From positions 9,362,501 through 9,426,500 of the forward strand of contig NC_088315.1 in NCBI RefSeq assembly GCF_910592395.1: a stretch of DNA of 64,000 nt, given 5' to 3'. Below the pieces are notes generated by a model. That model had not been told where the DNA came from and ran no database searches. It worked only from the letters and a program-made list of their open reading frames with translations. The stretch comes from Lineus longissimus. Its lineage: Eukaryota > Nemertea > Pilidiophora > Heteronemertea > Lineidae. Both the position numbers and the translations under genes were made by a program. Of the stretch, positions 1 to 53,030 are shown one piece after another; position 1 is the first letter of the stretch, and the number at the start of each line of letters is the position of its first letter.

Positions 1-108
1 GTGATCTTTCTCGCTATATGTCGTAGTGATAGCAGATGAGAAGATTAGCACTGCCCAGATCGTTCTTTTGTTAGCAATGCAACCTTCTGCCTCAATGTTA
101 TAATGCAT
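1..108 (-). CDS. Small hydrophobic ORF, partial at window edge
   Basis: The ORF opens with ATG at 108-106 (MHYNIEAEGC...) and runs off the left edge after 36 codons. The same reading frame recurs at 41768-41947, where it ends in ...SLPWA and a stop. The visible part contains a hydrophobic stretch (WAVLIFSSA). I do not recognise it. In copy 1 it lies immediately outside the leader side of the unit, whereas at 41.8 kb it lies next to the opposite end of copy 4. That is what a head-to-tail array with this sequence as inter-unit spacer would give. Whether it is translated is unknown. Confidence 0.3.
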   Translation of the reverse strand, partial: MHYNIEAEGCIANKRTIWAVLIFSSAITTTYSEKDH

Positions 109-120
109 AGCACGGATAAT

Positions 121-503
121 TCAAAGGAAGAAACCATTTATAAACGAACTACGTCCGGGGATGGACATATTTGGCCGATTTTGAAAGTGTTGAGTGAGAC
201 CTGAGTCATTTATTTCTAAAGGCCACTTCGTATAAGTACAATTTAAATTCCAAGTATAGTCTAAAACTTTACATTTTTCCGAAATGGTTGGAGATGTTGA
301 CATCATGCTTTCACAAAATGTTGGAATGACGAACGTAACGGATTTTTTTGATGGGTTTTTTTCCGTAAGAAGTCTTGCCCGTTGGCAGAAACAAATGAGT
401 CTTTTAACCAATCGAAAGGAAAGACATCGCATACCAAGCTGTCGTCTACCAAGTCATCTTCCACTCTACGATAGTAGTTCCAAAAGTCAACTTCCTCATA
501 AGC
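121..503 (-). CDS. Conserved small divergent ORFs at the unit end (copy 1)
   Basis: Two overlapping frames are open on the - strand. The more protein-like one (503-303) reads AYEEVDFWNYYRRVEDD and continues to ...RSSFQHFVKA and a stop. The other (432-121) encodes 103 residues ending in ...SSFINGFFL. Both recur in copy 4 (52623-53020), and the first recurs in copy 2 (26652-26885). Length differences between copies inside the first frame are multiples of three, which mildly supports coding. No family is recognised. They are transcribed divergently from the large ORFs, if they are genes at all. Confidence 0.3.
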
Positions 504-540
504 TTAAAAACAATTCAAGGTTTGACTGAATTATCACGCT

Positions 541-1835
541 ATTCCCATTTAACTATCAAATGGATCAAGGTATTAAAGCTCTCCGTGAAACAATCGCTTC
601 GAGCGGATCCATGCAGTGGCGACGACGCGCTGCGCGGGGACGAGGAACGGCATTGCGGAAAGAGCGCCAAGAGTTGGGCGTGCTAAATAACGAGTAACGC
701 CGTTTTCTAATATATAAAGAAGTTGAAACAGAGAGTTAGGAATAGCATTTGGGGAGGGTTAGGATTATAAGGTTGGGTAGGGGTCGAAATTTAAATGAGG
801 GCTTACTTAAACCACAGTGTGGCAAAGCAATTGCATTACGGGACTCGCGTATAAATAGTCGTTGTCTTTATTTGATGCACTGTGGCCATTATCACGCAAG
901 ACCCGAATGGTATGACGTGAGTCCCAAAATGACAGTTTGAGTTATCATGATTTCCGGTCACTTCGCCACTTGGTCTTCAAATTCGAATGGAGCAGTGATT
1001 GTATCCATTGATGGTTTAAACTAAAGAACCAGCTTCAGTCTACAGACTACAATCAGCAGGCATCACTCACCCTTGCTGTATTATTGGCAAGATTCGATAG
1101 GCAAATTCCGTAATCTGCCGGCAAAATGCAATTTGCCTTTCAAACCATACTTTAAGAGTCGTTTTAGAAGAATGTTAATCAAATTATCTGCAACGTCTAT
1201 ATTAAGAAGCCTTTTGGTCATCCCGATTAGCAGATATAATAGCAAAGTACATGTACCTCTATGGGACGAAGAGAGTTTGGCACACTTCCTTATCGTTACC
1301 AGAAGACATTCGTCTGATGCTACATTTTATTCATTGGACACTAAAATGGGAATGAATCAGAGATAAAGAGATCAGCATGGGTGTTGCTCAGAGACAGGCG
1401 GTTTTTGAACATGTTGTCGATAACTTGGCTTTTAAACATGTCGATCTAAAAATGAAGGGCCAAATATTAAGCCAAATCATGTGTGTTGCCATATGTCTGA
1501 TAACAAAAGGATGTCTCACTGTCAATTATTTGCACGTCGGAGACAGTTATTGCGAATTGAGTAAGCGGAGGGGAAGGTGTATGGGAAAGGGTGAGCTTGG
1601 TTACCATCAGGGATCAAGAATGCTTCAAAAGAAGGTAATAGGTCATCAAAACAACCTCATCTGTTATCTTTTGAGCATGCTGAATTGTCAACAAGGGTGT
1701 TTGGAGCTTGCTTCAAATAGTTTACCATTTCTGTAATTTCCATTTTCTCTCGAAGGCATCAACTGGTCAGATTTCCGGCGCTGTCAACGGACGTTTTCTC
1801 TTGCTACTTTTCTTGAACCCGGTCCGTTAGATTCG
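541..1835 (+). other. Leader block, copy 1 (short conserved ORFs)
   Basis: The block lies upstream of the 316-codon ORF. Open frames on this strand are 749-940 (63 aa), 1073-1366 (97 aa, MLYYWQDSIGKF...) and 1377-1736 (119 aa, MGVAQRQAVFEH...). The last two are 10 bases apart in different frames. The 97- and 119-residue frames recur in whole or part at 24139-24697, 25536-26121, 35261-35912 and 51411-51969. Changes between copies are mostly replacements, so selection in these frames is not evident. The opposite strand also carries protein-like frames in copies 2-4 (for example 51404-51625, MEITEMVSYLKQ), broken by a stop in copies 1 and 2b. I therefore cannot say which strand, if either, is coding. 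Confidence 0.4.
850..858 (+). promoter_or_regulatory. Candidate TATA box of the unit
   Basis: TATAAATAG follows a conserved GGACTCGCG. The same sequence is intact on the - strand at 25008-25016 and 26336-26344 in copy 2. In copies 3 and 4 (near 36131 and 52286) it reads GAATAAATAG. It lies about 1.1 kb upstream of the 316-codon ORF, so it would drive a long leader or a spliced transcript. Motif match only. Confidence 0.3.
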
Positions 1836-1944
1836 TTGTCTGTCATTTTGCCGTCATTTTGCCGTCATTTTGGCGTTAAAAAAAGAAATCACGCGAAGGT
1901 GAATGGTTCGATGACGTCTCATATATTCTGTTCAGCACAGGTAC

Positions 1945-2895
1945 ATGTATACACGGGGTGCCCGGGCAGTACTTATACCACCCAAACATATCACACATTA
2001 CCACCGCAACCTCGAGTATCTTATAGCAAGATCTTTGGAAAATTCAGGAGATGTTTACCTTTCAATTTACGAGTATAAGCCAAATACTCATGTGTTTCGG
2101 GTGAAATACAATGGCTCATATTTCCAGCGGAAGCCGAGAGGATCATTTAGCTACTTTGATAAGTTCCTCTTGATTTTTGATGGCCATGAAGTCTACATGT
2201 ATGATTTTACAAAGGGTATTGTAAACGGTAGTCTAATTCTGCCCAAGGAGGGCAGGCAGTGTCTTGAAAAAGAAGTAAACTACCCCATATATACCTTGGT
2301 TTTAACTTTAAACTTTGCTGAAAAGGCCTTCATGATGTGCGTTGATGGTTCACAGAGTATTTCTTTCTTTGACTACTACGTAGAAACAGGCTCAGAGCCT
2401 GTTCTACGGTTAACTAATAAAACGCATCTTCACTTCTCTCATGTTGACAAAGTAAAGCCAACCTGGTTCGACCACAGCTTATTCGTAGTTGGTTTTATAC
2501 ATCAGCGTCAAAACTATTTGACTGTGGCCGTATATCATTACAAGCAAGGACAATCATCCGGGTATAGCTTACTTAAGACACACTTAATCCAAGGCAACTC
2601 AGGCGGGGCAAAATCTTTTTTCATCATATCAAATCCAAACTATGGAGTTAAATTTGTCCTCTTAAAAAAATATCAGAGTGGGGTGATGTTAGGCTTTGGG
2701 TTTGTCATTGAGTGTAACAAAAAGAAGCCTCTGCAAAAGGCCTACATGAGAAAAGTCTGCACACACGTAAGTCTTGAAAAATATGTTGGTACCCGTGCTG
2801 AAATCAATAAGAAAGGCCAAATATTGCACTTTATTCGTTCAAAGCATTTAAACTCAAACACAATGTATGTGAATAAATATACAAGAGCAAACTGA
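1945..2895 (+). CDS. 316-residue propeller-like protein, copy 1
   Basis: Intact ORF of 316 codons. An in-frame TGA lies 27 bases upstream of the ATG, so the start is this ATG or a splice acceptor at CAG 1939-1941 just before it. There is no signal peptide or membrane segment. The chain is a series of hydrophobic strand-like runs with aromatic and Asp endings (FDKFLLIFDG at 71-80, VYMYDFTKG at 83-91, ISFFDYY at 139-145, YLTVAVYHY at 191-199), as in WD/kelch-type propellers. No named family is recognised. Homologous blocks can be laid against the 337-residue neighbour: FDKFLLIF with YDRYIVLS, LILP with LVIP, GFVIEC with GFRISC, KGQILHFIRSK with DGTLYHIVRVS. It differs from copy 3 at roughly 26 residues, yet length and frame are unchanged. 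Function unknown. Confidence 0.7.
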   Translation: MYTRGARAVLIPPKHITHYHRNLEYLIARSLENSGDVYLSIYEYKPNTHVFRVKYNGSYFQRKPRGSFSYFDKFLLIFDGHEVYMYDFTKGIVNGSLILPKEGRQCLEKEVNYPIYTLVLTLNFAEKAFMMCVDGSQSISFFDYYVETGSEPVLRLTNKTHLHFSHVDKVKPTWFDHSLFVVGFIHQRQNYLTVAVYHYKQGQSSGYSLLKTHLIQGNSGGAKSFFIISNPNYGVKFVLLKKYQSGVMLGFGFVIECNKKKPLQKAYMRKVCTHVSLEKYVGTRAEINKKGQILHFIRSKHLNSNTMYVNKYTRAN

Positions 2896-3735
2896 ACAAG
2901 AAAAGTCCTGCGATATTGGCTCTCGATCATAACTTGTCCACTGTAATGTATTTCTTAGTAGGCATCACTTACTTTCACCTACCACGCAGTGGTTTTCCGA
3001 GTTTCGTTTGAGGACCTCAAACAAATGTCCCAGATCTTTTTGGGCTGGTATTATCTGCCCCTGCTGAGCGACGACTGGTGTTGACGATTCCTGACGATGA
3101 CTGGTTTTGTAGGGGGGCCAATTAAGCCATTCAAATCAGCCACCATCAACCATTGTTTGACAGGACTGGCTTCCTAAGATCTGGATTAAAATATGACCGC
3201 GCTAAATGTGCGCATTGTCAGGATCTGAAGTTTTGCAATTTCAGTGGAATATGCCAAAACACCCAAAGAGGTACAATGTATTTTTAGATTTTCAAACTGA
3301 TGTTGCATTTTTGGCTTTGGTGTTTGAACGAAAAATGTTGGCATCTGAGTATTGATTCCTCTCATTCGTCTGACTTCTTTTGTTCAAACACTGAAGCCGG
3401 AGACACCATGCCAGTTTAAAAATCTCAACATATACACTCCTTGGATGTCTTGGAAAACACTAAAAACAATATGAGGTAAATGTCAATTTGATGGACGGTT
3501 AATACAAGGGCTCAGTTGAAATAGGTAGTCCTCAATTTGAAGCTGGATAATCTCGGAATCAGACGATTAGTTACTAGCTCAAAATTCTGACATTTTAAAC
3601 TAGGTCATTTACCTATATAACTTTTCGAGTGCACTTGCTTTGTACTACATCAGTGACAGACTGTCTTGATAAACCTTAAACTGGGCCGTAGCTAGAGGTG
3701 CTTGGCGCGGAAGGGAGGGCAAATGTCCCTCCATA
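2896..3735 (+). other. Intergenic spacer with imperfect foldback (copy 1)
   Basis: No ORF is supported. The stretch is colinear with 20722-21553, 32777-33599 and 48939-49766. It contains an imperfect inverted repeat, with left arm 3253-3329 (starting CCAAAACACCC) and right arm 3382-3454 (ending GGATGTCTTGG), separated by about 50 bases. The right end, 3640-3735, leads into the TIR of the Myb-bearing element. Confidence 0.6.
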
Positions 3736-3794
3736 AGCCTCTTTTACACTACACAGTTTTTTAACCCGGTTAAACCGTGCCGTGCTCGACCCGG
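3736..3794 (+). repeat. Orphan TIR end of the Myb-bearing element
   Basis: The 59 bases starting AGCCTCTTTTACACTAC match the end of the element at 9898-9956. The flank here is ATA (3733-3735), matching ATA at 10875-10877. This end therefore pairs with the right end at 10874, and the 9898 end is the extra one. The intervening 6.1 kb was inserted or rearranged into the element. Confidence 0.65.
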
Positions 3795-4210
3795 TGTGAC
3801 AGATGATATAGTCCGCCTGGAGTCATGGTCCGGAGGACCATGATCCCTAGGGACAGGGGTAGTAGTCCTAACCGGACTTCTATCTCTAACCTTCCTATAG
3901 GTAGATTACTATAATACTAATAGTATAAGTAACGGACTATAATCTCTAGCGGACTATATACACTTTTACAACCATGACAGAAATCATAGTCCGCATGTCC
4001 TTTTCATAATCAATACTTATTACGCTATGGTTCATTCATTATCGCAATAACAAATAGGTTAACAATTAGTAGCCGACCGTCAACCGCTCCGTGGTGTATT
4101 TGTAAAGGTGAAGTTCTTATAAGTACCATGAACCGAGTTCGACTCCGGGCGCTCCCACCTTTTTTTATGTAATATTTTCCTATATCATGGGTGTGTCGCA
4201 TTTGATTCAT
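3795..4210. other. MITE-like segment plus tRNA-like 3' end
   Basis: Bases 3811-3964 are bounded by ATAGTCCGC and GCGGACTAT and hold a short internal palindrome (CATGGTCCGGAGGACCATG). The same terminal motif bounds 9793-9890 in the opposite sense. Near the right end, GAGTTCGACTCC (4135-4146) is one base off a pol III B box and is followed by GGGCGCTCCCACC and a T7 run (4160-4166). That resembles the 3' half of a tRNA or a tRNA-derived SINE. No matching 5' half or A box was found, so it is not called a tRNA gene. Confidence 0.4.
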
Positions 4211-4443
4211 TTTTTATCCGAAGTGATGTGACGTCAAGAGCACGTGATTTCCTAATGAGCTCAGTTGGTTTTGAAAATCCGACCGTGACGGACCTGCTGT
4301 TGGGCAGCTCTGGTGTTCGGCATGGTTGGTTTCGAAATCAGCGCTACTATTGTGGATTGTGCACTTGGCTCGGTGAGTATATGCACTTGGCTCGGTGAGT
4401 TAGTGTATAGCCGGGGAGTAACCCTTCTTGGCGAGGGTAGGCT

Positions 4444-4890
4444 CAAGGCTGCCGGAATGCCTGATTCGTCAGGATGGCCGAGGTGATAAGCCGGACGTGA
4501 CCTTGTTTGGACGAGGTGGGCCAGGCTGTCGGAATGCTTGATTCGTCAAGATGGCCGAGGTGATAAGCCGGACGTGACCTTGTTTGGACAAGGTGGGCCA
4601 GGCGGTCGGAATGCTTGATTCGTCAAGATGGCCTAGGTGATAAGCCGGAGGTGACCTTGTTTGGACGAGGTGGGCCAGGCTGTCGGAATGCTTGATTCGT
4701 CAAGATGGCCGAGGTGATAAGCCGGACGTGACCTTGTTTGGACAAGGTGGGCCAGGCTGTCGGAAGGCTTGATTCGTCAAGATGGCCGAGGTGATAAACC
4801 GGACGTGACCTTGTTGGACAAGGGGGCCAGGCTGTCGGAATGGTTAGTTCGTCAAGATGGCCGAGGTGATAAGCCAGAGGACCGACTCTT
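4444..4890 (+). repeat. 77-bp tandem array, about six units
   Basis: CCAGGCTGTCGGAATG-type starts recur at 4521, 4598, 4675, 4752 and 4827 (spacing 77, 77, 77, 75), with a weaker first unit near 4444. The array sits in the 5' untranslated part of the retroelement. Long - strand ORFs across it are produced by the repeat and are not genes. Confidence 0.85.
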
Positions 4891-5895
4891 GAATGAGCAA
4901 ATTGCGGGTTATCCTGTTTGGTCGGGATAGGCCCGAGGGCAGGCCATGCTAGGTTTGCCCAGATGAGATATAAGAAAGTAGAATGGTAGCACGGGGCTGT
5001 TTGAGCTAGTGCAGAGTAATGTAGAATAAGCCATTTAGGAACCAAAGTGGGGAGTTGTCAGCACTGGCCGCCTTTGGGAAATAAGTTTTGTGACCGCAAT
5101 GGGCGTTTTGATAAAGTGAAGTAGGAAGTTGATGGCGCTGAACCGAGTGGGTTGTTTAGTTATATGTATATGTAAGTTTACGTACATCAAGTGAGTATAC
5201 CATTATCGAGCTTAGTGCGTAATGTTGCAGTGCATTTACATGTATGTTCAAGACTAACGGGTTTTTGGTTAAAGACATACCGGGGCCAACTCGGTCAGGC
5301 ACTGAAAGTTGGTGCCCCTTTTAAGAAATACGTGTCGATTGTGTGACTGCGAGGTTGGTCGGGCTCTAGGCGGTGTGTTTGTATGTGGTTAGAAGGAAGG
5401 TAACCAAGCCGTAGCTATTCTATTGTTAGGCTGGATTCGGTTATGGTTTTGACAGAGTCGTTTCATTGTCTCGTCGGATTAGTAGTTAGTGGTTTTTGGA
5501 AAACAGGTTTCATGTTGTTGTATATGGAAGTTGGAATAGTTGACAATCTGAGGTGGGTTTATTTATGTGGTTGATAGCCCATGCTATTTTTTACTGATTT
5601 CTGATGGGGGATAAAGTGGTCGGCTGTAGTACTGGCTCACTGGACGTGGACGTAATTTTGGGCGGGGTAAGCGCGTCAGGCAACAGGTGTATTTAGTGGG
5701 AATGACATTCTATTGTTAGGAATGTAAAGAGTTCTGTAAGTTTCCTGAGGTCTTTTACATATATGTCTCAAGTAACTCAGGTTTAGTAGTTTTAGGGCGT
5801 GCACCACCGGCCTTGGAACTTTAAGGATTGCATAATTGGTTGAGGCCGTTGGTTAAAATTGTGTGAACACGTCGGGTTTCATATCTTCCTCGTAG

Positions 5896-7539
5896 TTGCT
5901 TATTTTGCAGTCGCTTTGGGGAGGGCAAGATGCTTTCTCTCTTGTTTCCTGGGACACTGATGCCCAGTTGGAACAGGAGGGGGAGGGTCTGGCCTTGCCC
6001 CTATTGATGATATCGGGAACTAGGAAGAATAGACTATGCCATGATGAAAGGTTCTTAAACCTTTTCATGAAACACATGCCTTTTTCCCTGGAAGGTTCTG
6101 GTCTCATCCCGGGTCTGATAGAGAAAGGGGATTTCATGGCATCCACTGACGAGAAATCTGCTTATCTCAACGTATTTTTGTCCGAGAGGACCAGAACGTT
6201 TTTTGGAATACAATTTGGTGGGTGGTATCTGGTTTATAACTGCTTGCCGTTTGGATGGTCTTTGTCTCATTTCGTTTATCAATCGATAGGGATGCAGGCA
6301 ACGACGTTTTTGAGATTAAAAGGGGTGATCACAACCCAATATCTGGATGACAGGTTTCTTGGTCCGGCAAGGTTTGTAACAGGTTCGAAGTTACAACAAA
6401 CGGGGATCTCGATATTTTGCAACGCGGCAACCCTGTCTCTGCTAGGCTACACCATCGAATTTCTGAAGAGTATATGGTTTCCGTCCTGTTCATTGCTTAA
6501 CCTTGGGTTGATAGTTCACTCGGATTCAAGGCAATTTCAGATCCCTGCGGATAAGAAACTGAAATTTAGAGAATTAAGGGAACAGATTTTGGCGGAGGCC
6601 GTGGTTCCCGTAAGGACTTTGCAAAAGTTCATTGGCAAATGCGTTTCGTTCAAAATCTGTGTTCCTACCGCAAGTCTTTACATTCGGACAATGGCTATTG
6701 AAATTGGTCGGTCAGGAAAAGCCAAGGCAGACATTCGGGTTGAAGGGGACTTGAGGGAGGAAATAGTGTTCTGGCGCTTCCTGGATGGCTTTTCGGATTG
6801 GGCTAATTGGAGGGGTGAACGCCATGTGGATTTGAACTTGTCCACGGATGCCAGTGGCTTCGCTTGGGGGGCCACCCTGCCCGATGGTCGGGAGGTGCAT
6901 GATTTCTGGCCACGGGATGACAACAGACCAATCCATCTGAAGGAGACTGAGGCTTTGTTGAAGACTCTGCAGGCGATTCCTGAGTGGTCACGGGACAAAC
7001 GGGTAGATGTATCTGTTGACAATCTGGCGTTGGTAACATCATGGGCTAAGCAGGGGGCTAGAGACCCTCCGTTTGTCAAACTACTCAAGTCCATATTTCA
7101 GGTGATTTCTAGACTAAATTGCGATTTGAAGCTAACTTACGTACCTTCGAAGGAAAACACGGCGGATGCTGCTTCTCGTAATTCGTCTCCGAGAGACGCA
7201 AGGTTATCAGTGGAGGCTTGGTCGGGGTTAGAAAGGTTGTTTGGACCCCATACCCTGGATTTAATGGCATTAGATTCCAACGCAATGCTGGATAGGGATG
7301 GTAACGCGTTGCCACACTTCACGCCTTACCCACTTCCGAGATCAGCGGGGGTTAACGTTTTGACGAAGATACTATCCGGCACGGAAAATTACCATTGTTT
7401 CCCGCCTTTTTGCATGATAGGTTCGGTCTTGACTTTCGTGTTACATGAAAACCCTAGGCCACTTCGGGTAACCTTTGTAGTTCCTCGGCTATCTCCTCTT
7501 CCGTCTTGGTGGCCGGTTTTGATGTCGGTGGCAAGGTGA
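5896..7539 (+). CDS. Reverse transcriptase-RNase H of DIRS-like element 1
   Basis: The 547-codon frame carries RT motifs in order: LCHDERFLNL (48-57), STDEKSAY (83-90), FGIQFGGW (103-110), LPFGWS (117-122) and the catalytic YLDDRF (149-154). A DIRS-type RNase H follows, with STDASGFAWG (Asp318), the KETEALL glutamate (about 351) and DVSVDNL (Asp375). A conserved tail (DLMALDSNAM, HFTPYPLPRSAGVNV) is typical of the group. The product would copy the element's RNA into DNA. The N-terminal part of the RT that is present in element 2 (FIANELEQR...) is missing or out of frame here, so the first residues are probably not native. The next frame, for the recombinase, is broken. Confidence 0.88.
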   Translation: MLILQSLWGGQDAFSLVSWDTDAQLEQEGEGLALPLLMISGTRKNRLCHDERFLNLFMKHMPFSLEGSGLIPGLIEKGDFMASTDEKSAYLNVFLSERTRTFFGIQFGGWYLVYNCLPFGWSLSHFVYQSIGMQATTFLRLKGVITTQYLDDRFLGPARFVTGSKLQQTGISIFCNAATLSLLGYTIEFLKSIWFPSCSLLNLGLIVHSDSRQFQIPADKKLKFRELREQILAEAVVPVRTLQKFIGKCVSFKICVPTASLYIRTMAIEIGRSGKAKADIRVEGDLREEIVFWRFLDGFSDWANWRGERHVDLNLSTDASGFAWGATLPDGREVHDFWPRDDNRPIHLKETEALLKTLQAIPEWSRDKRVDVSVDNLALVTSWAKQGARDPPFVKLLKSIFQVISRLNCDLKLTYVPSKENTADAASRNSSPRDARLSVEAWSGLERLFGPHTLDLMALDSNAMLDRDGNALPHFTPYPLPRSAGVNVLTKILSGTENYHCFPPFCMIGSVLTFVLHENPRPLRVTFVVPRLSPLPSWWPVLMSVAR

Positions 7540-7719
7540 GTTATTGTCCTTGGTCGGAGTGATGATCGGGATGTGCTAGAGATCCCGTCAAAGCGGGGTT
7601 ATATCTCTTCACCGTTATTGTACCCCTTGTTGGCAGCTAGGCTCGTTCTAGAATAAGAGGTTAAGAGCTGGTTGAGCGTGGGCTTAGGATTATGTGTCGG
7701 TAGTTGATCGTAGTTTTAT

Positions 7720-8954
7720 GTGGTAATAGCGTTTCTTCTTGTTCCCCTTCAGAGAGGTGCCCATGGTCTGCCTTCGGGGTTGGAGGTTGCTGAATTGCGC
7801 AGACGGGTCGATTCCCTGATGGACGGGTTCAAATCATCGTGTTATCAGATTCGCAAGTCGAAACTTCAGAAGAATTTGGAATTATCCTTGGAAAATCTCG
7901 GGAAGGTTCTTGATACATGTACTCCGGATGATATTTGTTTATATCTGGCATGGGCCGACAGAGACGGGAAAACAGTGGTGCAAGTTATACAGTGCCCTGC
8001 TATAGGTCAGAGATTACCCACATGTGCCTGCCCAAGGAGGTGGCGTCCAAGATCTCACAAGTTAGGGACATATTTGATCGATTGGGAAAGCCTAAAGGGT
8101 GGTCCTCCGCGAGCCAGGGGAATCCGGTTCGTTCGGATCAGGTGGCAATTTATTTGAGACAAATTCGGGTAGAGCAGAGCAAAGCCCATTTAATGGTGTC
8201 TCAGGCGAAACCTTTGTTCATATCGAAACTACTTTTGCTGGCAATGTACATAGACAAGGAATAAGGCCGACAGGATATCCCTCTGCACACAAAGTTTGTT
8301 CTGGCAAGGGACCAGGCTATGTTAAAATTAATGTTTTTGGTGGGGACAGGGCGCATGATGCTGGGATAATGTTGTCGCAGGAAATTCGGGAATTGCCTGC
8401 GGGTGCGGCGTTTATCATTAAGCATACCTGGGGGGAAGACTCATCGTGCCGATAATCCCAACATCTTTTCGGTGTTTCGTTCGAGGGTAGCTGTGGTGTG
8501 TCCGGTCTTGGGTTTAAAGACGTATTTTCAGGTTGCCAGTTCGTTCGGCGTGGATTTAAATACGTGGTTTCTGTTTAGGCCTCTCGCGCACCAGAGGGTT
8601 GTTGATAGCCCCCTGTCATATGAGGTCACCTATCAGAGGTTAAAGCATTATTTGGGGAAAATAGAGGCAGATGAGGGGGAAACGCCTCTTAGTTTGAGGG
8701 GCGGCTGTGCGATATCAATCCGTTTTTTGTCATCCAAAGTGGTGCCTTCACAGCCAGATATTGAAGCCATGATGGATCACATTGGTTGGTCGTCCGAATC
8801 GGCGGCTTTACGCTACGCTAGGTCGGGGAAGCTCGACCAAGCAGCTAAAATGGCCGCAATTATGTCGGCAGCTTCTGTTGAAGACTGGAGGCAGGTGGAG
8901 GGGGAATATATCGAGGAATGCGATCTGCCGAGTCCGTTTCCTCAGAAGGTGTAG
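7720..8954 (+). pseudogene. Tyrosine recombinase of DIRS-like element 1 (frameshifted)
   Basis: Homology to the intact recombinase at 54199-55467 is spread over several frames (7720-8157, 7935-8264, 8099-8455, 8403-8954), so at least three frameshifts have occurred. Recognisable pieces are the CACP knuckle near 8025, GGDRAHD (first catalytic Arg), SLRGGCAIS (second catalytic Arg) and HIGWSSESAALRYAR (catalytic His and Tyr). The His expected three residues before the second Arg is Leu. The enzyme would have integrated the circular cDNA; this copy is inactive. Confidence 0.8.
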
Positions 8955-9792
8955 AGTGGTTGTCCGATGTGGAGGACTCCTGTTTGGGAAAAGTGTACAT
9001 GGTTGGGATGTAGTATTTGCAATGTTGTACTGAATAAAGGTTCATCACTAAGAGATTGACGTTGGTTAGTTCTTTAGCGGGTAGTGGTGTTTGGGGCGTT
9101 TATTTGATATGAGTTTTATTGAGTGATGGGGGTTAAGGTGTGGAGTAGATGGAGAGGCAATATAACTCATATCAGATAATCCCCCAAATATGAGGGAAAC
9201 TCTATCATGACATTAGCGCCCGGAGGGGTTAACTCGTAGCGTTTCGGAGAGAGAGCGATCTCATGTCCATTACTTAAAGGCACAGAGCATGCATATGATG
9301 ACGCACCGCTTTGGATACTTGATTATCCGAAGTGGTGTGACGTCAAGAGCACGTTATTGCCCAATGAGCTCAGCTAAATTAGTGCACTGTAGAGTGTTAG
9401 TCCTTAAATATCTGTAATGCAAAGCTCGGCTGTCGATATTTCATGGCCATTATATCAAGATATTCTGTACGTGATACATGGTTATATCTTTTCAGCTCTT
9501 CCAAGTTGGGACTTTGGTGCTTAAAAAGAACAATAGGAGGGCAGACAGAAAGGGGGGGGGAGCAGGATGAACCTTGGCTGGGCCCATAAACAGTCGAAAA
9601 AAGGAACGAAAGTGGAACTTACATAATATCAAAAGGAGGAAAAACTAGCAAAGTTGGCGTAAACGCATGCCAGCTTAAAGTTTACAACGTTTAAATATAT
9701 TGTGAATTCTTTGAAAATAAACACTGTTCATTGAGAAAATTCGCCTCCATCTTTATTATTGCATTTGAAAAACTTCTCTCCTCTTGGCATCA
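8955..9792 (+). other. 3' region of element 1 and flank
   Basis: No gene is seen. It holds a small inverted repeat (GATATGAGTTTTA near 9110 with AACTCATATCAGA near 9165), the right-hand direct repeat ending near 9376, a G9 run near 9550 and AT-rich sequence up to the MITE. Confidence 0.4.
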
Positions 9793-9890: not shown

Positions 9891-9897
9891 GAACTAT

Positions 9898-20719: not shown

Positions 20720-20721
20720 TA

Positions 20722-43074: not shown

Positions 43075-43076
43075 AG

Positions 43077-43244: not shown

Positions 43245-43984
43245 CTTAATCATATACCTATTGATATTTGAACATTGTTGCTCATTTTGTATATTACCAC
43301 TAATTGTGCCACCGAGTCAGGTGATCGTCATGGACAACGAACATGTTGCCGATTAGAAAGACACAAAGGTGGTTACCAAAGATGATAAATAGAGATGAAA
43401 AAACGAGGGTGCATATGCCCCCCCCCCCCCCCCCCCAATAACGCATATGACAGCTTTTCCTGATTTATCCGACATTCCTCTGACATAGTTGCTCGAAGAA
43501 TGATTGAAGAATCGATCATCATTTTATTGTCTGGAACTGGCTATGAAATAGATATTGATGTGAATAGCACATGCAGTTGTTTTCAAGTTTCAGTCATCGG
43601 TAAACTTTACGGCTGGTTAAATCTGTTTGTGCTCACGACATTGCTTACAAAACACATTTTCTTGTTGATCAGATTTCGATGATCAACACAGCCTTGTTGT
43701 CAGGTAAAAGTTTGCTTTTACCGCCATCAAACAAGTACGAAATATCGAAAAATAAAGAACATGCAATAAAAAAACTTTATTACTTTTATAGCCTGCAAGT
43801 AGGTACACATCACGTAGCTCAAGTTTTGTATGATATGAAGACAATCAACCTCAGCTAGGGAGATTGCTGCCACGGTTCCAGCAAATGAGCCATAGCTCAA
43901 TATCTGATTCAGAAAGTGCTTTCCCCACACAGAGTACCAATTCCTGGCAAGGGGACACGGTTCCCATCAGAAGCTCAGTGTGAG
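43245..43984. other. 3' part of unit copy 4, no clear gene
   Basis: It includes a C-run near 43419-43436 and the 60-codon frame 43500-43682, identical to 28058-28240. No function is assigned. Confidence 0.35.
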
Positions 43985-44333
43985 TGCTGTGCCACTGATG
44001 ATAAGCGGATTGATTTGATTTGGATCATAGAGCTGATTCCTCGTCATGTGATCCCGTACTCGAACAGCAATGATTCGTTCAATCAGTTTGGATAAATGTA
44101 GAACTAGATACATGCCAGTAACTTGGTAACTCATTCTTGTCCAGAGACGGCTTTTTTAGCATTGGTTTCTCAAAGGCCGACTTTAGGCGAGAGGGAACAT
44201 GTCCTTGCTGCAGTGACTTATTGAGACCGCCATTACCAAAATGGCGGTCTTCCTTGTTTTTACTGGTTTTCTCTCTCCCTCTCTCCCCGTATCCAATCTG
44301 CGGTTTCATCAGGATAACTCGAGGACTAAACAA
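43985..44333 (-). pseudogene. LINE reverse-transcriptase fragment, copy 4
   Basis: Same remnant as 28540-28889. The frameshifted downstream part is clearest here (SKLIERIIAVRV then DHMTRNQLYDPNQ). Confidence 0.6.
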
Positions 44334-44808
44334 TGTATCACCCTGAATGTATCAGGGATTGTTGATATGTGTGATGACCAGAAGTGATTTAATTATGGGC
44401 AGAAATGGATTAAAATCTGAATTTTGGCGCCGGTATTTCTAAAGTTTTGACTGCTTAATCAATTATAGTCCGAACGTCAGCTTTTGCCGAACAACTGGTG
44501 ATTAAGGGGATTTGCCAATCCATTATTCGAGCGGCACCCCGCCGATGATCACCACGATATACCATACTCCCAAGCTCCAGTGGTGGGAAGGCAAACTATT
44601 GCTGAGATGACTCTCCTGCTTATTGAGCAGCACCCACTGCGTTGTCCACGCAAAGTCAGACGGCTACCTAAAATGTGGAAGAGGGAATGATTCGAGGATG
44701 CACCCACTGTTATGATTAAAAAAAACCTTGACGTCTGTGACTGTGGACATTAGGTCAAGGTCAAATCTGTCGATTGTCATGGAATTCAACATAATTAAAT
44801 ACCGCCGG
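44334..44808. other. Non-coding spacer, copy 4
   Basis: Colinear with 16091-16560 and 28890-29360; nothing recognised. Confidence 0.4.
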
Positions 44809-45431
44809 AGCTAAGGTAGTCGTGTTTGTTTTTAATTCAAAGGTTTGGACTGAGCCCCTTTTGTGACTTAATAACCGTTCGAGCTAAGGTAGTCGTGATT
44901 GGCATCAAACTTTAGTTTTTTTGGCATGTTTGAATTGACCCACTTTCGTTACCTATTGATGACCATTAACGCTAAGTTATTCATGTTTTGCATCAAACTT
45001 CAGTTTATGAGCATTAGATTGGCCATATTTTGTGACTGTCGCACCTTCACCTTTAGAGCTAATCTAGACGTTTGGTATTAAACTTCAGCATATGAGGAGT
45101 TGGTTTGAACTGACCTACTTGTATGATCTACTGGCCCACTAAATGATAGTTCGAGCCAAGGTGGTCGTGATAAATATCAAACTTTACTTTATTTTAGGCA
45201 TATTTGGACTGACCAATTTTCGTGACCTACTTATTGATGACTGCTAACGCCAAGTTATTCATGTTTGCATCAAACTTAAGCTTGTGTGGATTACATTTCA
45301 ACTGACCATCTTTCGTGACACGCTCACCAAACGACCTTTATAGCTAATCTCGACATTTTTGGCCAAACTTCAGCTTATGAGGAGTTGGTTTGAACTGACC
45401 TACTTTCTTAACTTACTGACCTACTTATTAA
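44809..45431 (+). repeat. Seven-unit tandem repeat, copy 4
   Basis: Unit order and phase are as in copy 3, with few differences between the two copies. Confidence 0.82.
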
Positions 45432-45790
45432 GGACTAATTGACCTGCCATGTTTTCTGCACCTATATTATCTTGTCATCCTTTCAGTTTCTCTTAATGAC
45501 GATGGTGATTTAATTCTCCTAGATGTCAAGGACGAGGAAACGTTGCCCACCTTTGTGACCCGACAACCTGATAGTGACGACAGCTCCTGGTTTTATGACA
45601 CAGTTGATACAATGAAGAATTCTATCATCGACACGGCTTACTGCAGATCAAAGATAAAACGACAAAAAAGTCAGTTACCAACAAACGCTTGAAATGTGGC
45701 AAAGAAAACGATGAAAAAATAAATTCCTATCCCTTAACTAAGGTGACATGTTTCCTTGACAACAGAGTTGTTGGTGCAACCTTCTTCTAA
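45432..45790 (+). other. Convergent + strand ORF pair, copy 4
   Basis: Both frames are open, as in the other units. In addition, the next + strand frame (45802-45984, MMDSDSIMPWFPEP...) is open only here, because the TGA of copies 1-3 reads TTA after DETP. So the + strand has a longer coding-like run in this copy. Confidence 0.33.
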
Positions 45791-46176
45791 CCAACATCGC
45801 AGTGATGGATTCTGACTCGATCATGCCATGGTTCCCAGAACCTGATGAAACACCTTTAGAGAATATTACGAGACGAATTGATATAATCGTCAAATCCGAC
45901 TTTTTGTTTCTTCCAAAAATTGTGAAGAAAATGTATTCGAACCGCACTATAGATTCCAGCGATGCAGTCAAGTCATTTGCCTAAACGAATGTAGTCGCAG
46001 TTTCCACACGGTAACAAAAGGCCACATCGACCACAGTCGCATTTGGCAATGAAACGGTTAACACTTAGTTTCTTCAGACCATTGGAATAGGAATTAGTCA
46101 AGTGGAAATACATAGACAGCACAAAATTCAAATCATCGCAACACCATGCTTTACTTAAAAAATCAATGGTACACTG
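45787..46176 (-). pseudogene. Cysteine-rich ORF, copy 4 (one stop codon)
   Basis: Carries the same internal TGA as copies 1 and 3 at the KCLDC cysteine. The rest of the frame is open. Confidence 0.42.
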
Positions 46177-46767
46177 TCACTGTCACTGTTACTCTCGAGT
46201 TCTTCTCTACGATAGTCAGTGATTTTTTTAATACTTGGGGGTTCCACAAAAAGTTATGGGAGGAGTTAGCAACTCTCTCTGTTTTATGTAAATGATTACC
46301 GAAATCCATGTCCTTATCGACTGCCAATACTGTTCGTTTCTTTATTCAGGATTGTTTTCTGTATTGTGACCGCTCGACTTTCATGAATAATAGTTAAAGC
46401 TTTTTAAATTGTATTCTGACTTCACTTACTGAACTACTGTTACCTGTAAGTCATGAGTCATCACCACTTTCTAGCTGGCTGCAGCATGTCGGTAACGATA
46501 AATTCCTTTAAAATTTGGTGCTGCCATCAGCATTGTGGCAATTCCTTACCTGGAACAAAGGGTTACAACTAAACCACTCCAGCCAGCTTACTACAGCTAG
46601 TTTCAGCCTTCACCATATCAAACTGCCCTTCAATAGATTTCATAGTTAGCACTATGAAGACATCTCTTTTCACTATCATGCCCATATCCATGGCCAAAAA
46701 GGCGAAAATAGGTGAACAGGAGGCCATTTTCTAAGAGCGCCAAGGACATTTTGTTCATCACTTGCAC

Positions 46768-47007
46768 CTAGAATTCATCAGTGATTTTACGTGCCCGACA
46801 AACGTCAACCTTTTCCATCTCTGTCGACATTATTATCCGCGGGGGCCAGGCGACATGATGATACACTTCGCGCATCATAAAAAACCTAGAATAGCATCTC
46901 CCTAAACTCAAGAGACCTGTGTTCTTCATAATCAACTCAAATTGTTCATATAAAAATTGGCTCTTGATGATCAGTCGTTTGTTGTGAATATCTCCACGTG
47001 TTTCCAA
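46768..47007 (-). CDS. Third small ORF, copy 4 (short form)
   Basis: Ends KITDEF like copy 2, because of the shared 40-base insertion. Its open frame extends upstream across the end of the 337-codon ORF. It has no palindromic insertion. Confidence 0.3.
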   Translation of the reverse strand: METRGDIHNKRLIIKSQFLYEQFELIMKNTGLLSLGRCYSRFFMMREVYHHVAWPPRIIMSTEMEKVDVCRARKITDEF

Positions 47008-47984
47008 TACCTTTTCGTCACGGACTTGGAAACCCTTACAATATGATAGAGTGTGCCGTCTAACATTTGGATGAAGTCATCCAGCGCGCTTCTGGAAATC
47101 TGGTATCTCAAATCAATATCAACATGATCAATGGCTAAGGTTGTATCGACGCGTCTCATGACGCAGCTGATTCTAAATCCAAAGAATGCTGTCAATATTT
47201 GCTCGTTATTCCTTCCAAGGGCCGCAGTTAGAATTATAAGGCGGTCTGATTCCCTAAACCAATAGTCGTAAGTTAATAACTGGAGATCTGTAAAGTTGAT
47301 AATGGAACTAAATTCGGTGCTCGAGCCTGGGAGAGTAAAATGTTTGCTTCTTCTAAACCAGTATAAATACAATCCTGAAAAATCGTTCCCTTCTTTTTCA
47401 CCAATGATAAAGTACACGAAGTCTTCGCCAAGGAAGAATCTGTCGTAAGCAGACACCGGGACGTTTATTTCTATAGCGCCTTTGGACGAAGGTCTAATAA
47501 CGGCGCTTTCATTCAGATTAAATGAATACATGCTAATGACAGACTGGCTATATCGCTTGCAATCAATGACTAATGTCCCGTGTCGGAGCAAAATATCGAA
47601 CTTCGTCACATACACCCCACTTACGCACGGGTCCGTTTCCGGTATGACTAGTTTCCTAGTGCCGATGCCAAGCCTGACGTCAAAGAGGATAAATGTCAGA
47701 TACTTTTGCTCTTCCCAGCAACTTACGACGATGTATCTATCATAGACCAGTGCATTGCTTGCTATATACAGTTTAGCGCACACTAATTCGTTTACATGAA
47801 GGATTGTCCTATAGGTGAGAACGAATATACCTTGCTTTGAATTCAGTCGAAACATGCACACGTTGTAATCCTGTTTACCACGGATGTCTGTCAGGACACC
47901 AATGGCGCCAGTCACGTGATTATAAAGCAACCTTTCATTGCTGCCAATTCGTAATATCACAGGTGGTAAAAACATCGCTCTCAT
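46971..47984 (-). CDS. 337-residue propeller-like protein, copy 4
   Basis: Intact. Residues 238-240 are TYD, the fourth distinct version of this tripeptide. It otherwise matches copy 2 except for about six changes (Glu17, Phe202 and Leu252 among them). Confidence 0.7.
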   Translation of the reverse strand: MRAMFLPPVILRIGSNERLLYNHVTGAIGVLTDIRGKQDYNVCMFRLNSKQGIFVLTYRTILHVNELVCAKLYIASNALVYDRYIVVSCWEEQKYLTFILFDVRLGIGTRKLVIPETDPCVSGVYVTKFDILLRHGTLVIDCKRYSQSVISMYSFNLNESAVIRPSSKGAIEINVPVSAYDRFFLGEDFVYFIIGEKEGNDFSGLYLYWFRRSKHFTLPGSSTEFSSIINFTDLQLLTYDYWFRESDRLIILTAALGRNNEQILTAFFGFRISCVMRRVDTTLAIDHVDIDLRYQISRSALDDFIQMLDGTLYHIVRVSKSVTKRYWKHVEIFTTND

Positions 47985-48219
47985 TCTGCGTCTGTACCGT
48001 ATTTTTCGATTACCCTTAATAATTAAGTAGTAGAACCGTTAAATGTTATACAGCTGATATTTGTTTTCTTGATACCGTCATCTTTGAGATGATTTCGGTA
48101 ATATTGCTGGTCATAAGCGTGCTTTTTTTCGTCATGGGGGGGGGGCAAAACGCCTCTTTTATCCTCCATCTGGTTGAACATCAGCCAAAAACCGCAAAAA
48201 CACGTTTTTGTAACTCTAT

Positions 48220-48935
48220 AGCCCCTTTTACACTACGCATTTTCAACCGCGCTCGGCCCGCGTCGAGCGCATCTCGGCAAAAAAACACGTGGCAACTCGT
48301 GGTGCAGCGTGGTCGGCAGATGAGACCAAAACATTGATTGCCTTGTGGGGGGAAGATGTTACCCAGGCCCAACTAGGAGGAACACGCCATAACAAGAAAT
48401 TGTACAAGGAGATTGCGAAAGGACTGGAGGAAGCTGGTTTCCCTGACAGGGAGTGAAAGCAGTGTCAAGAAAAGATCAAGAAGCTGAAGAAGAAATATCG
48501 GGAAGTTTTAGACAATAACATTCGCTCTGGAAAAGGTAGAAAGGAATGGGCATATTTTGACAAAATTCACGAGATTCTAGGTACAAGGCCCATGTCCAGG
48601 CTTTCAATTTTGCTACAATCGGCAGAAAAGAAACCCAAGGCAAAAGGAAAAGCGAAGAAAGTGTCCGCAGCAGCCTCAGGCAGCGAATCTGCAGACAGCA
48701 CTAGGCCTAGTAGTCGGGCTTCGACCTCCACAGCAACAGATGATGCAGATGCCAATAATGCCAAGGAGAATTTCCTACCTCAAACAGAGGACGGAGCGTC
48801 GATCCAGGTAAATTGGCGCGGTGACAGAGATGGATTATTGTGCGTAGTGTAATGGTACATCAGAGGCGGGCTCGACCCGGGTCGAGCACGGCACGGTTTA
48901 ACCGGGTTAAAAAACTGTGTAGTGTAAAAGAGGCT
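48220..48935 (+). mobile_element. TIR element with Myb/SANT-like gene, copy 4
   Basis: The 716-bp element has the same ends and the same TAT flanks (48217-48219, 48936-48938) as copy 2, at the identical unit position. It was therefore present before copies 2 and 4 separated, or was moved by conversion. Confidence 0.75.
48287..48852 (+). pseudogene. Myb/SANT-like gene remnant, copy 4
   Basis: As in copy 2 but without the shift near GGAAAAGG (48530). The TGA after FPDRE remains, so from there the frame SGKGRKEWAYFDKIHEILG is continuous with the Ser/Thr-rich tail. Confidence 0.6.
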
Positions 48936-48938
48936 TAT

Positions 48939-49766
48939 GGAGGGACATTTGCCCTCCCTTCCGCGCCAAGCCCCTCTAGCTACGGCCCAGTTTAAGGTTT
49001 ATCAAGACAGTCTGTCACTGATGTAGTACAAAGCAAGTGCACTCGAAAAGTTATATAGGTGAATGACCTAGTTTAAAATGTCAGAATTTTGAGCTAGTAA
49101 CTAACCGCCTGATTCCGAGATTATCCAGCTTCAAATCGAGGAGTACCTATTTCAACTGAACCCTTGTATTAACCGTCCATCAAATTGACATTTACCTCAT
49201 ATTGTTTTTAGTGTTTTCCAAGACACCCAAGGAGTGTATATGTTGAAATTTTTAAACTGGCATGGTGTCTCCGGCTTCAGTGTTTGAACAAAAGTAGTCA
49301 GACGAATGAGAGGAATCAAAACGCAGATGCCAACATTTTTCGTTCAAACACCAAAGCCAAAAATGCAACATCAGTTTGAAAATCTAAAAATACCTCTTTG
49401 GGTGTTTTGGCATATTCCACTGAAATTGCAAAACTGCAGATCCTGATAATGCGCACATCTAGCGTGGTCATCGTTTAATCCAAATCTTAGGAAGCCAGTC
49501 CTATCAAACAATGGTTGATGGTGGCTGATTTGAATGGCCTAATTGGCCCCTCTACAAATCCAGTCATCGTCAGGAATCGTCAACACCAGTCGTCGCTCAG
49601 CAGGGGCAGATAATACCAGCTCAAAAAGAGACGGACATTGTTTGAGGTCCTCAATCGAAACTCGGAAAACCACCATGTTGTAGGTGAAAGTAAGTGATGC
49701 CTACTGAGAAATACATTACAGTGGACAAGTTATGATCGAGATTCAATATCTCAGGATTTTTCTTGT
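48939..49766 (-). other. Spacer with foldback, copy 4
   Basis: Colinear with 20722-21553. The inverted repeat lies at about 49210-49415. No gene. Confidence 0.5.
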
Positions 49767-50717
49767 TCAGTCTGCTCTTGTATATTTAACCACATACATT
49801 GTGTTTGAGTTTAAATGCTTTGAACGAATAAAGTGCAATATTTGGCCTTTCTTATTGATTTCAACACGGGTACCAGCATATTTTTCAAGACTTATGTGTG
49901 TGCAGATTTTTCTTATGTAGGCCTTTTGTAGAGGCTTGTTTTTGTTACACTCAATGACAAACCCAAAGCCTAACATCACCCCACTCTGATATTTTTTTAA
50001 GAGGACAAATTTAACTTCATAGTTTGGATTTGATATGATGACAAAAGATTTTGCCCCGCCTGAGTTGCCTTGGATTAAGTGTGTCTTAAGTAAGCTATAA
50101 CCCGATGATTGTCCTTGCTTGTAATGATATACGGCCACAGTCAAATAGTTTTGACGCTGATGTATAAAACCAACGACGAATAAGCTGTGATCGAACCAGG
50201 TCGGCTTTACTTTGTGAACATGAGGGAAGTGAAGATGCGTTTTATTAGTTAACCGTAGAACAGGCTCTGAGCCTGTTTCTACGTAGTAGTCAAAGAAAGA
50301 TATACTCTGTGAGCCATCAACGCACATCATGAAGGCCTTTTCAGCAAAGCTTAAAAATAAAACCACGGCATATATGTAGTAGTTTACTTCTTTTTCGAGA
50401 CAATGCCTGCCCTCCTTGGGCAGAATTAGACTACCGTTTACAATACCCTTTGTAAAATCATACATGTAGACTTCAGGGCCATCAAAAATCAAGAGGAACT
50501 TATCAAAGTAGCTAAATGATCCTCTCGGCTTTCGCTGGAAATATGAGCCATTATATTTCACCCAAAACACATGAGTATTTGGCTTATACTCGTAAATTAA
50601 AAAGTAAACACCTCCTGAATTTTCCAAAGATGTTGCTATAAGATACTCGAGGTTGCGGTGGTAATCTGTGACAGGTTTGGGTGGTATGAGTACTGCCGGG
50701 AGATCCCGTGTATACAT
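49767..50717 (-). CDS. 316-residue propeller-like protein, copy 4
   Basis: Intact. Close to copy 2 (PKPVTDYH, AGTRVE) but with Trp52, Tyr114, Ser123, His168 and Glu234 as private changes. Residue 123 is Asn, Asp, Asn and Ser in copies 1 to 4. Confidence 0.7.
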   Translation of the reverse strand: MYTRDLPAVLIPPKPVTDYHRNLEYLIATSLENSGGVYFLIYEYKPNTHVFWVKYNGSYFQRKPRGSFSYFDKFLLIFDGPEVYMYDFTKGIVNGSLILPKEGRHCLEKEVNYYIYAVVLFLSFAEKAFMMCVDGSQSISFFDYYVETGSEPVLRLTNKTHLHFPHVHKVKPTWFDHSLFVVGFIHQRQNYLTVAVYHYKQGQSSGYSLLKTHLIQGNSGGAKSFVIISNPNYEVKFVLLKKYQSGVMLGFGFVIECNKNKPLQKAYIRKICTHISLEKYAGTRVEINKKGQILHFIRSKHLNSNTMYVVKYTRAD

Positions 50718-52600
50718 ATACCTGTGCTGAACAGAATATCTGAGACGTCATCGAACCATTCACCTTCGCGTGATTTCTTTTTTCGACGCCGCTATGAATG
50801 CTCGCTGTACATAATGTCCTTGCAGTTATCGGTGTTATACCACAATTAACCTACAGTGGTGACCTATCACCATCCGGAGACTAATAGATTCCGATCCCTA
50901 AACAGTTTTATCGGTCTACCATGTAACACAATAGAAACAAAGCTCTCCAATTACAGTAATGGAGGGTACAACTGCCCAGTAACACAATGAGTTAATCCGC
51001 GCCTCTGACATTCCAAATTCTTAGTATTCATTTATTCTTGATTCTTCGCATTTAAATTTCAGGTGTGGTTTATCCCCGAGACATGAAAAGCTGATACATT
51101 CAGTGTAAATTGCGATATCTATAATTGCTGATAACGATTACATCTGGGAAACTGCAAAGTCCTTTTGACCAGACTCAGGGACCATCTAACAGATGTCACC
51201 GACAGGACACGACACTTGAGCCAACTTAACGAGTCAGGCATTCATCATTGCAGCGGTGTAGAAACCTTTTTAGGAGGGGGGGGGGGGAGGGGCGGCAAAA
51301 TGACAGACAACGAATCTAAAGGGCCGAGTTCAAGAAAAAGTAGCAGGAGAAAACTTCCGTTGATGGCGCCGGAAATCTGACCAGTTGATGCCTTCGAGAG
51401 AAAATGGAAATTACAGAAATGGTAAGCTATTTGAAGCAAGCTCCAAACAACCTTCTTGACAATTCAACATGCTCAAAACAAAACAGATGGGGTTGTTTTG
51501 ATGGCCTATTACCTTCTTTTGAAGCATTCTTGATCCCTGATGGTAACCAAGCTCACCCTTTTCCATACACCTTCCCCTCCGCTTACTCAATTCGCAATAA
51601 CTGTCTCCGACGTGCCAATAATTAACAGTGAGACATCCTTTTGTTATCAGACATATGGCAACACACATGATTTGGCTTAATGTTTGGCCCTTCATTTTTA
51701 GATCGACATGTTTAAAAGCCAAGTTATCGACAACATGTTCAAAAACCGCCTGTCTCTGAGCAACACCCATGCTGATCTCTTTATCTCTGATTCATTCCCA
51801 TTTTAGTGTCCAATGAATAAAATGTAGCATCAGACGAATGTCTTCTGGTAACGATAAGGAAGTGTATCAAACTTTCTTCGTCCCATAGAGGTACTTTGCT
51901 ATTATATCTGCTGATAGGGATGACCAAAACGCTTCTTAATATAGACGTTGCAGATAATTTGATTAACATTCTTCTAAAACAACTCTTAAAGTATGGTTAG
52001 AAAGGCAAATTGCATTTTGCCGGCAGATTACGGAATTTGCCTATCGAACCTTGCCAATAATACAGCAAGGGTGAGCGATGCCTGCTGATTGTAGTCTGTA
52101 GACTGAAGCTGGTTCTTTAGTTTAAACCATCAATGGATGCAGTCACTACGCCATTCGAATGTGAAGACCAAGTGGCGAAGTGACCGGAAATCATGATAAT
52201 TTAAAATGTCATTTTGGGACTCACGTCATACTTTACGGGTCTTGCGTGAAAATGGCCACAGTGCATCAAAGAAAGACAAGGACTATTTATTCGCGAGTCC
52301 CGTAATGCAATTGCTTTGCCACACTGTGTTTTAAGTAAGCCCTCATTTAAATTTCGACCCCTACCCAACCTTATAATCCTAACCCTCCCCAAATGCTATT
52401 CCTAACCCTCTGTTTCGACTTCTTTATATATTAGAAAACGGCGTTATTCGTTATTTAGCACGCCCAACTCTTGGCGCTCTTTCCGCAATGCCGTTCCTAG
52501 TCCCCGCGCAGCGCGTCGTCGCCACTGCATGGATCCGCTCGAAGCGATTGTTTCACGGAGAGCTTTAATACCTTGATCCAGTTGATAGTTAAATGGGAAT
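50718..52600 (-). other. Leader block, copy 4
   Basis: It includes a G-run near 51276-51287, the 119-codon (51770-51411), 62-codon (51969-51781) and 63-codon (52392-52201) frames, and + strand frames MTDNESKGPSSRK (51300) and 51404-51625. The TATA-like site reads GAATAAATAG. Confidence 0.45.
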
Positions 52601-52622
52601 AGCGTGATAATTCAGTCAAACC

Positions 52623-53020
52623 TTGAATTGTTTTAAAGCTTATGTGGAAGTTGACTTTTGGAACTACTATCGTAGAGTGGAAGATGACTTGGTAGACGAC
52701 AGCTTGGTATGTGATGCCTTTCCTTTCAATTGGTTAAAAAACTCATTTGTTTCTGCCAACGAGCAAGACTTCCTAACGGAAAAAACCCTTCAAAATTACC
52801 CGTTACGTTCGTCATTCAAACATTTTGTGAAAGCATGATGTCAACATCTCCAACCATTTCGGAAAAATGTAAAGTTTTAGACTGTATTTGGAATTTAAAT
52901 TATACTTATACGAAGTGGCCTTTAGAAATAAATGACTCAGGTCTCACTCCACACTTTCAAAATCGGCCAAATATGTCCATCCCCGGACGTAGTTCGTTTA
53001 TAAATGGTTTGTTCCTTTGA
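52623..53020 (+). CDS. Conserved small divergent ORFs, copy 4
   Basis: Frame one (52623-52838) reads FKAYVEVDFWNYYRRVEDD... to RSSFKHFVKA and is the longest version. Frame two (52730-53020) covers the 96-residue partner ending SSFINGLFL. No family is recognised. Confidence 0.3.
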
Positions 53021-53030
53021 ATTATCCGTG

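Follow-up and report, generated by a model that had tools for sequence, protein, structure and literature searches.

A window of 64,000 nucleotides on chromosome 8 (C8, positions 9362501-9426500) of the ribbon worm Lineus longissimus carries four repeat units, and in each of them two long frames, A (316 codons) and B (337 codons), are open from an ATG to a stop. We propose, with a probability of roughly 0.65, that these units represent a tandemly expanded, gene-converting and fast-evolving family of multi-exon genes for probably secreted PAN-like proteins, whose C-terminal module belongs to no known family. The units are members of a gene family rather than copies of a mobile cassette, and for A and B, large 3' terminal exons are probably a better interpretation than single-exon genes.

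Under this proposal, the units would be tandem and inverted duplicates of one multi-exon locus, in which a short PAN/apple-like exon precedes A and B, two distantly homologous terminal exons that each have a separate stop and phase-0 acceptor. Judging from the phases, splicing may join the PAN-like exon to one of the two, A or B, or to both by way of alternative transcripts; either a single PAN-like exon would serve both, or there would be further first exons. The predicted product has an N-terminal PAN-like domain followed by a module of ~320-350 residues and would probably be extracellular. Copies would multiply through unequal exchange and inversion, as the arrays suggest; they swap sequence by gene conversion, as mosaics show, and mostly keep their frames, while change is most rapid in a small number of zones within the C-terminal module.

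A large family centred on chromosome 8

The window is a slice of a much larger array on chromosome 8, as became apparent when the whole assembly (391,118,348 bases in 30 contigs) was searched; all match counts given here are lower bounds. With B as the query, 57 places were found (E ≤ 0.01), comprising 31 full-length one-piece matches, 25 rows of pieces and one remote row on C15. The one-piece matches all lie in the 9.30-12.35 Mb interval of chromosome 8 (28 stop-free, three with stops), and the pieces amount to eight more near-complete loci, seven on chromosome 8 and one on C7, plus five partial ones. The A query gave 71 places: 27 full-length one-piece matches, every one of them stop-free and on chromosome 8, 34 rows of pieces that make up eight near-complete and 11 partial loci, and ten remote rows on C5, C7, C10 and C20. 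Of the 31 one-piece B copies, 25 have a one-piece A no more than 12 kb upstream in the same orientation, in most cases at ~1.05 kb. One broken A-B pair was located off chromosome 8, at C7:10799163-10801958.

Because a frameshift splits a match, one-piece counts are biased to intact copies, and fair fractions are those taken over near-complete loci. On this basis, 28 of 39 B loci and 27 of 35 A loci are intact (one piece without a stop), all of them on chromosome 8, which answers in favour of a maintained family the question, raised with the original prediction, of how many copies exist and whether those elsewhere carry stops. The remaining 11 B and eight A loci are stopped or split; this fraction weighs against our reading, and it confines the statement that no frame had been lost to the eight window instances, of which it is true, since it does not hold for the family.

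More remote members were reached through locus L051 on C10, whose terminal exon as a query gave 69 rows (E ≤ 0.001), eight in clusters on C10 and others in the C8 cluster. Beyond these two sets of clusters, 34 rows are spread over 13 contigs, 30 in open frames of at least 300 codons and four with an internal stop. In L051, a PAN-like frame lies 5' of a 351-codon frame; compared with a profile built from the PAN-like exons of C8 and C15, this PAN-like frame reaches 58 bits, and none of 2000 shuffles exceeded 8.3. At locus L039 on C15, a PAN-like frame is followed by frames of 287 and then 326 codons, the latter a homologue of B (hhalign probability 97%, E = 1e-10).

These loci also bear on how A and B are related. 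A profile of C10 and C5 terminal exons matched A at 96%, the C15 287-codon frame at 95% and the C15 326-codon frame at 96% in hhalign, and B directly at only 2%. Short-motif tests against 1000 shuffles gave 1, 2 and 2 for three comparisons with the C15 frames, and 28 and 251 for A against B. A ten-sequence alignment displays a common motif around YDFRxGxxxGKLxxP and a C-terminal G..xH...K. Direct comparison of A with B gave no or only marginal support for homology (hhalign ≤ 0.3%; global alignment P = 0.03, local alignment P = 0.70). Sequence comparison thus places A and B in one superfamily by way of the C10/C5 and C15 intermediates and not by direct comparison.

Evidence for a probable multi-exon gene

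The reading of A and B as terminal exons follows from the phase-0 acceptors at their 5' ends, from the presence in every unit of an upstream PAN-like exon whose donor is in phase 0, and from the absence of the ATG in some intact relatives. Twelve of the 13 distinct contexts of exon A have the predicted acceptor TTYAG/CAC (a slash marks the splice site) in phase 0, and the thirteenth, from a broken copy, keeps the AG; for exon B, the predicted acceptor AG/G is in phase 0 in all 26 distinct contexts. The ATG is missing from one of the 13 A contexts and from two of the 26 B contexts, all three in open frames, so the ATGs of A and B need not be starts.

Upstream, the leader frame that contains the PAN-like exon has 126 codons (124 in unit 3), and an extra copy of it in unit 2 is interrupted by stops at codons 103 and 123. 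The predicted donor, GAAG/GTAATA, is in phase 0 in all five window copies, and the residues QKK/V at the donor are kept in four of four divergent copies. Variable codons are rarer 5' of the donor (14/93, four deletion codons excluded) than 3' of it (17/33; P = 9e-5), and at 9.30 Mb on C8 and on C15, the most divergent pair of loci examined with tblastn, similarity stops within two codons of the donor.

As to the identity of this exon, PAN_1 was the sole Pfam family at E ≤ 10 in each of the five window copies (E = 0.0033-0.014), and it also matched one divergent C8 relative (E = 0.0097 and 0.011, 15.9-16.2 bits, from one locus read twice). In an alignment, the four core cysteines of the PAN framework and one following cysteine are kept in four of four divergent copies. 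When a profile of four divergent PAN-like exons was compared with the PDB, three of the four matches were plasma kallikrein, an apple-domain protein (E = 0.89-0.95); these matches are weak but would agree with the family named by Pfam. Relative to PAN/apple proteins (Pfam PF00024, for example the plasma kallikrein heavy chain), the exon has a C-x3-C-x5-C-x12-C spacing in unit 4 and a similar hydrophobic pattern, whereas its low score and the attached C-terminal module without a known family set it apart.

Several results tell against this exon model. All five window copies score 15.7-17.7 bits, below the PAN_1 gathering score of 21.4, and the C10 and C15 copies had no PAN match in the Pfam scan; for these two reasons the exon is named PAN-like only. 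A ribosomal protein (E = 0.28) heads the PDB matches of the PAN-like profile, the closer relatives L043 and L044 remain similar beyond the proposed donor, and a scan of the leader frames by eye for ATG-led hydrophobic starts found no convincing signal-peptide exon.

Selection and gene conversion

Across the 6,221 shared alignment columns of the four units, we counted 18 small insertion or deletion (indel) events, none in the 1,965 coding columns and 18 in the 4,256 others, a category that includes the PAN-like exon (one in-frame 6-base deletion) and an indel-free stretch of 1,198 columns. The probability of zero coding indels is ~0.001 if events are spread by length. Within the window, the ratios of non-synonymous (N) to synonymous (S) differences, 50:16 for A and 34:15 for B, equal that of a neutral simulation and so count against maintained function, and the simulation yielded zero stops by chance in 7% (A) and 14% (B) of cases. 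Window substitutions alone show no constraint, and the rest of the genome is needed to decide.

Among 28 distinct intact B exons, the median ratio of non-synonymous to synonymous rates (dN/dS) was 0.52-0.74 in five dS bins. The corresponding range for A was 0.37-0.90 in six dS bins, from 13 sequences that represent 12 loci (unit 4 is present twice, once cut at the locus end) and of which four are cut at locus ends. Parsimony assigned 682 N and 308 S changes to B and 382 N and 201 S changes to A, with N-rich zones at codons 68-77, 123-132, 233-242 and 298-307 of B and at codons 116-125 and 281-290 of A. Codons 232-242 of B have 57 N:5 S against 625:303 elsewhere (Fisher's test, P = 1.3e-5) and codons 114-125 of A have 38:10 against 344:191 (P = 0.04), both zones having been picked after seeing the data. 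Within the window, clustering of variable sites at distances of up to 3 bases also occurs in one non-coding stretch out of five ('mid', P = 0.009) and is hence no peculiarity of the exons at this very short range; at distances of up to 15 bases, it was significant in both exons only. With most near-complete copies intact, B medians below one and changes concentrated in a few zones, the suggestion that this is a diversifying gene family has held up.

The units are also mosaics. In the exons, informative sites pair units 1 and 3 against units 2 and 4 (23:0), and in the downstream tail they pair units 1 and 2 against units 3 and 4 (14:0; Fisher's test, P = 1.6e-10); the stretches excluded from this test gave 0:2, 3:0, 9:1 and 1:0. 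Gene conversion between units is demonstrated by this sequence pattern.

Alternative explanations

If A and B were instead two independent ATG-initiated single-exon genes lying side by side, the PAN-like frame would belong to another gene. This would account for the ATG that 24 of the 26 distinct B contexts and 12 of the 13 A contexts carry, for the separate stop of each frame and for the usual A-B spacing of ~1 kb. It leaves unexplained the intact relatives in which the ATG is missing, the maintenance of splice sites in matching phase, and the position of a PAN-like exon 5' of a homologous exon on C8, C15 and C10. We set this model aside on account of the missing ATGs and the matching splice phases and consider it unlikely; the 316- and 337-codon frames, taken in the original prediction for whole genes, are thus probably terminal exons.

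Two further explanations were considered. Recent segmental duplicates drifting neutrally, with the intact frames as leftovers, would fit the neutral N:S within the window, the 7% and 14% chances of staying stop-free, and the 11 of 39 B and eight of 35 A near-complete loci that are stopped or split, alongside further fragments. Yet frames are still open where the proteins have diverged by 20-25%, as they are in the remote members of other contigs, and the B medians of dN/dS stay at 0.52-0.74; neutral drift is contradicted by the wider family, could fit single copies at most, and is improbable as a general account. Cargo of an unrecognised large mobile element, as had also been suggested, would explain why ~10 kb units recur in both orientations, why remote relatives are found on many contigs and how one broken A-B copy came to lie on C7 at 10.80 Mb. 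However, unit ends vary from copy to copy, no transposase was found to be common to all four units, the transposon genes present are seen in single units or are missing from unit 3, and intact close copies are confined to chromosome 8. We dropped this reading because the unit ends differ and regard it as very improbable indeed, and return to the multi-exon gene family as the preferred account.

Relatives and fold of the terminal modules

Searches of Pfam, NCBIfam and the PDB with the terminal modules gave no convincing family match, the best being FAINT (E = 0.085), DUF1583_N (E = 0.061) and CitB (E = 0.017), each under its cut-off. FAINT (DUF529) was considered and rejected: in two of three copies scanned it matched 26 residues at 10.6 and 13.3 bits, short of its gathering score of 20.7. 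When A and B were compared with 5.8 billion proteins from many animals and from assembled-read collections, none of the 429 and 1,099 candidates reached E ≤ 0.1, by a method that requires common five-residue words and in a database from which the proteins of L. longissimus itself may be absent; a transposase query used as a control found 122 relatives. The lack of any match at this scale weighs against the proposal. Viral contigs contained no relative of A or B, and phages, searched with A, none of A. A search of an open-access library aimed at such families found no paper on the A/B family, and the main text of a paper on ribbon-worm secretions (PMC9132205) contains none of the terms 'PAN domain', 'apple domain', 'propeller' and 'orphan'. 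In the searches made, no relative of A or B was detected outside the L. longissimus genome, in agreement with the earlier remark that the proteins match no recognisable family.

With regard to the fold, AlphaFold2 models of A and B, each built from four near-identical sequences, had confidence scores (predicted local distance difference test, pLDDT) of 33.6 and 30.3. Cross-blade hidden Markov models and de novo motifs found propeller blades no better than in shuffles, and a beta-propensity spectrum for propeller repeats gave P = 0.89-0.92. When the register was tested with anchors chosen by eye, the observed count was reached by 47 of 5000 shifts across all windows and, in cross-tests of A against B, by 38/337, 10/316, 3/337 and 77/316 shifts. 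The periodicity of amino-acid change had P = 0.009 (B) and 0.008 (A) for single codons, 0.12 and 0.025 in blocks of five, and 0.20 and 0.09 in blocks of ten. Only the by-eye register test and the periodicity of change point toward a propeller; they are suggestive, and the fold is unproven. A and B resemble beta-propellers in being beta-rich in the low-confidence model, in hairpin-like repeats seen by eye and in a suggestive 53-59 codon rhythm of amino-acid changes, but differ from them in lacking a family match, a significant internal repeat or a confident model.

Organisation of the window

A comparison of the window with itself by blast resolved the four units (Table 1), unit 1 on the forward strand and units 2, 3 and 4 on the reverse strand, with identities mostly of 93-97%. 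The description of four units, one of them inverted, with paired intact frames was accordingly confirmed, as was the variation of the surrounding DNA by insertions among units; the count of eight full open frames stands, to which a ninth, partial B copy has to be added. Units 2 and 3 adjoin head to tail, the downstream end of unit 3 meeting the upstream end of unit 2, and a 502-base piece at 26914-27415 is present again at 42056-42557, downstream of unit 4.

Table 1 Units and predicted exons in the window (positions counted from its first base)
Feature	Position	Strand	Remarks
Unit 1	106..14270	+	DIRS-like insertion inside, ~3795-9897; window self-blast
PAN/apple-like cysteine-rich exon, unit 1	1356..1634	+	Ends at predicted donor GAAG/GTAATA; Pfam PAN_1 E = 0.0047, below gathering score
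Terminal exon A, unit 1	1936..2895	+	316-codon frame plus 3 codons from acceptor TTCAG/CAC
Terminal exon B, unit 1	11083..12126	+	337-codon frame plus 10 codons from acceptor AAG/GGT
Partial exon B, ninth copy	14269..14529	+	Residues 102-188, 87 codons, 85% identical, frame open
Unit 2	15756..26917	-	Window self-blast
Terminal exon B, unit 2	18745..19788	-	
Terminal exon A, unit 2	21554..22513	-	
PAN-like exon, unit 2, copy adjoining exon A	24241..24519	-	
Second PAN-like exon, unit 2, tandem duplicate of leader	25566..25844	-	Stops only 3' of donor
Unit 3	26914..36425	-	Window self-blast
Terminal exon B, unit 3	31526..32569	-	
Terminal exon A, unit 3	33600..34559	-	
PAN-like exon, unit 3	35363..35635	-	In-frame 6-base deletion
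Unit 4	42056..53035	-	Window self-blast
Terminal exon B, unit 4	46971..48014	-	
Terminal exon A, unit 4	49767..50726	-	
PAN-like exon, unit 4	51513..51791	-	

The DIRS-like retroelement in unit 1 separates A from B, and ~59 unit bases are duplicated on either side of it (3736-3794 and 9898-9956). A 650-base piece is found in units 1, 2 and 4 (9898-10546, 20072-20719 and 48290-48935), unit 3 being without it at the same place; the unit 4 copy encodes a Myb/SANT-like DNA-binding domain. The predicted intron of unit 2 holds a 16-base tandem repeat of 16.8 copies (23620-23872). The indel-free stretch mentioned above lies 3' of exon B, at 12359-13556 and its counterparts (1,198 bases), and only 2.8% of its sites are variable in the four units, below the level of the exons; its short frames had no family match above noise, and neither had the subset of other small unit frames that was scanned.

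Outside the units, a second DIRS-like retroelement (54199-57709, reverse strand) contains a 422-codon open frame with an ALOG domain (E = 9e-23), and, judging by a motif, the same frame presumably encodes a tyrosine recombinase; pieces of reverse transcriptase and RNase H adjoin it. PMC3537659 describes DIRS elements with ALOG domains from cnidarians, molluscs, echinoderms, amphioxus and a brown alga; the animal copies are reported there as inactive. Pieces of a Harbinger-type transposase at 61147-62847 have molluscan proteins as their best named relatives (23 of 26 species-named matches among those listed), and the segments 39193-40314 and 62880-64000 are 99.6% identical.

Possible role and significance

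Invertebrates have tandemly arrayed families of recognition or secreted proteins that evolve rapidly, and fast-changing families of this kind often have recognition functions. The family described here shares with them its tandem arrays, gene conversion, raised dN/dS and hot zones of change; it differs in that its large module has no named family and in being known here from sequence alone. By analogy, the simplest role would be that of a set of proteins for recognition or binding, with a binding surface that diversifies from copy to copy, a suggestion that we make tentatively, at slightly less than even odds; that it is argued from analogy and from the clustering of changes weighs against it. 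A broader reading, and a rather doubtful one as a whole, would be a genome-wide superfamily limited to ribbon worms or their close kin, consisting of PAN-like proteins with a C-terminal module of a new family and possibly a new fold, which has grown into arrays with pairs of alternative last exons that diversify at their binding face and form an unrecognised recognition repertoire.

Dozens of intact, fast-evolving members on one chromosome, with relatives on 13 contigs and no named relative found in our searches, are unusual even for a poorly sampled phylum, and a single assembly displays the pairing of terminal exons together with gene conversion and localised amino-acid change. If these clusters are truly a recognition or defence repertoire, they would offer a system in which to study how binding proteins diversify in invertebrates that lack rearranging receptors.

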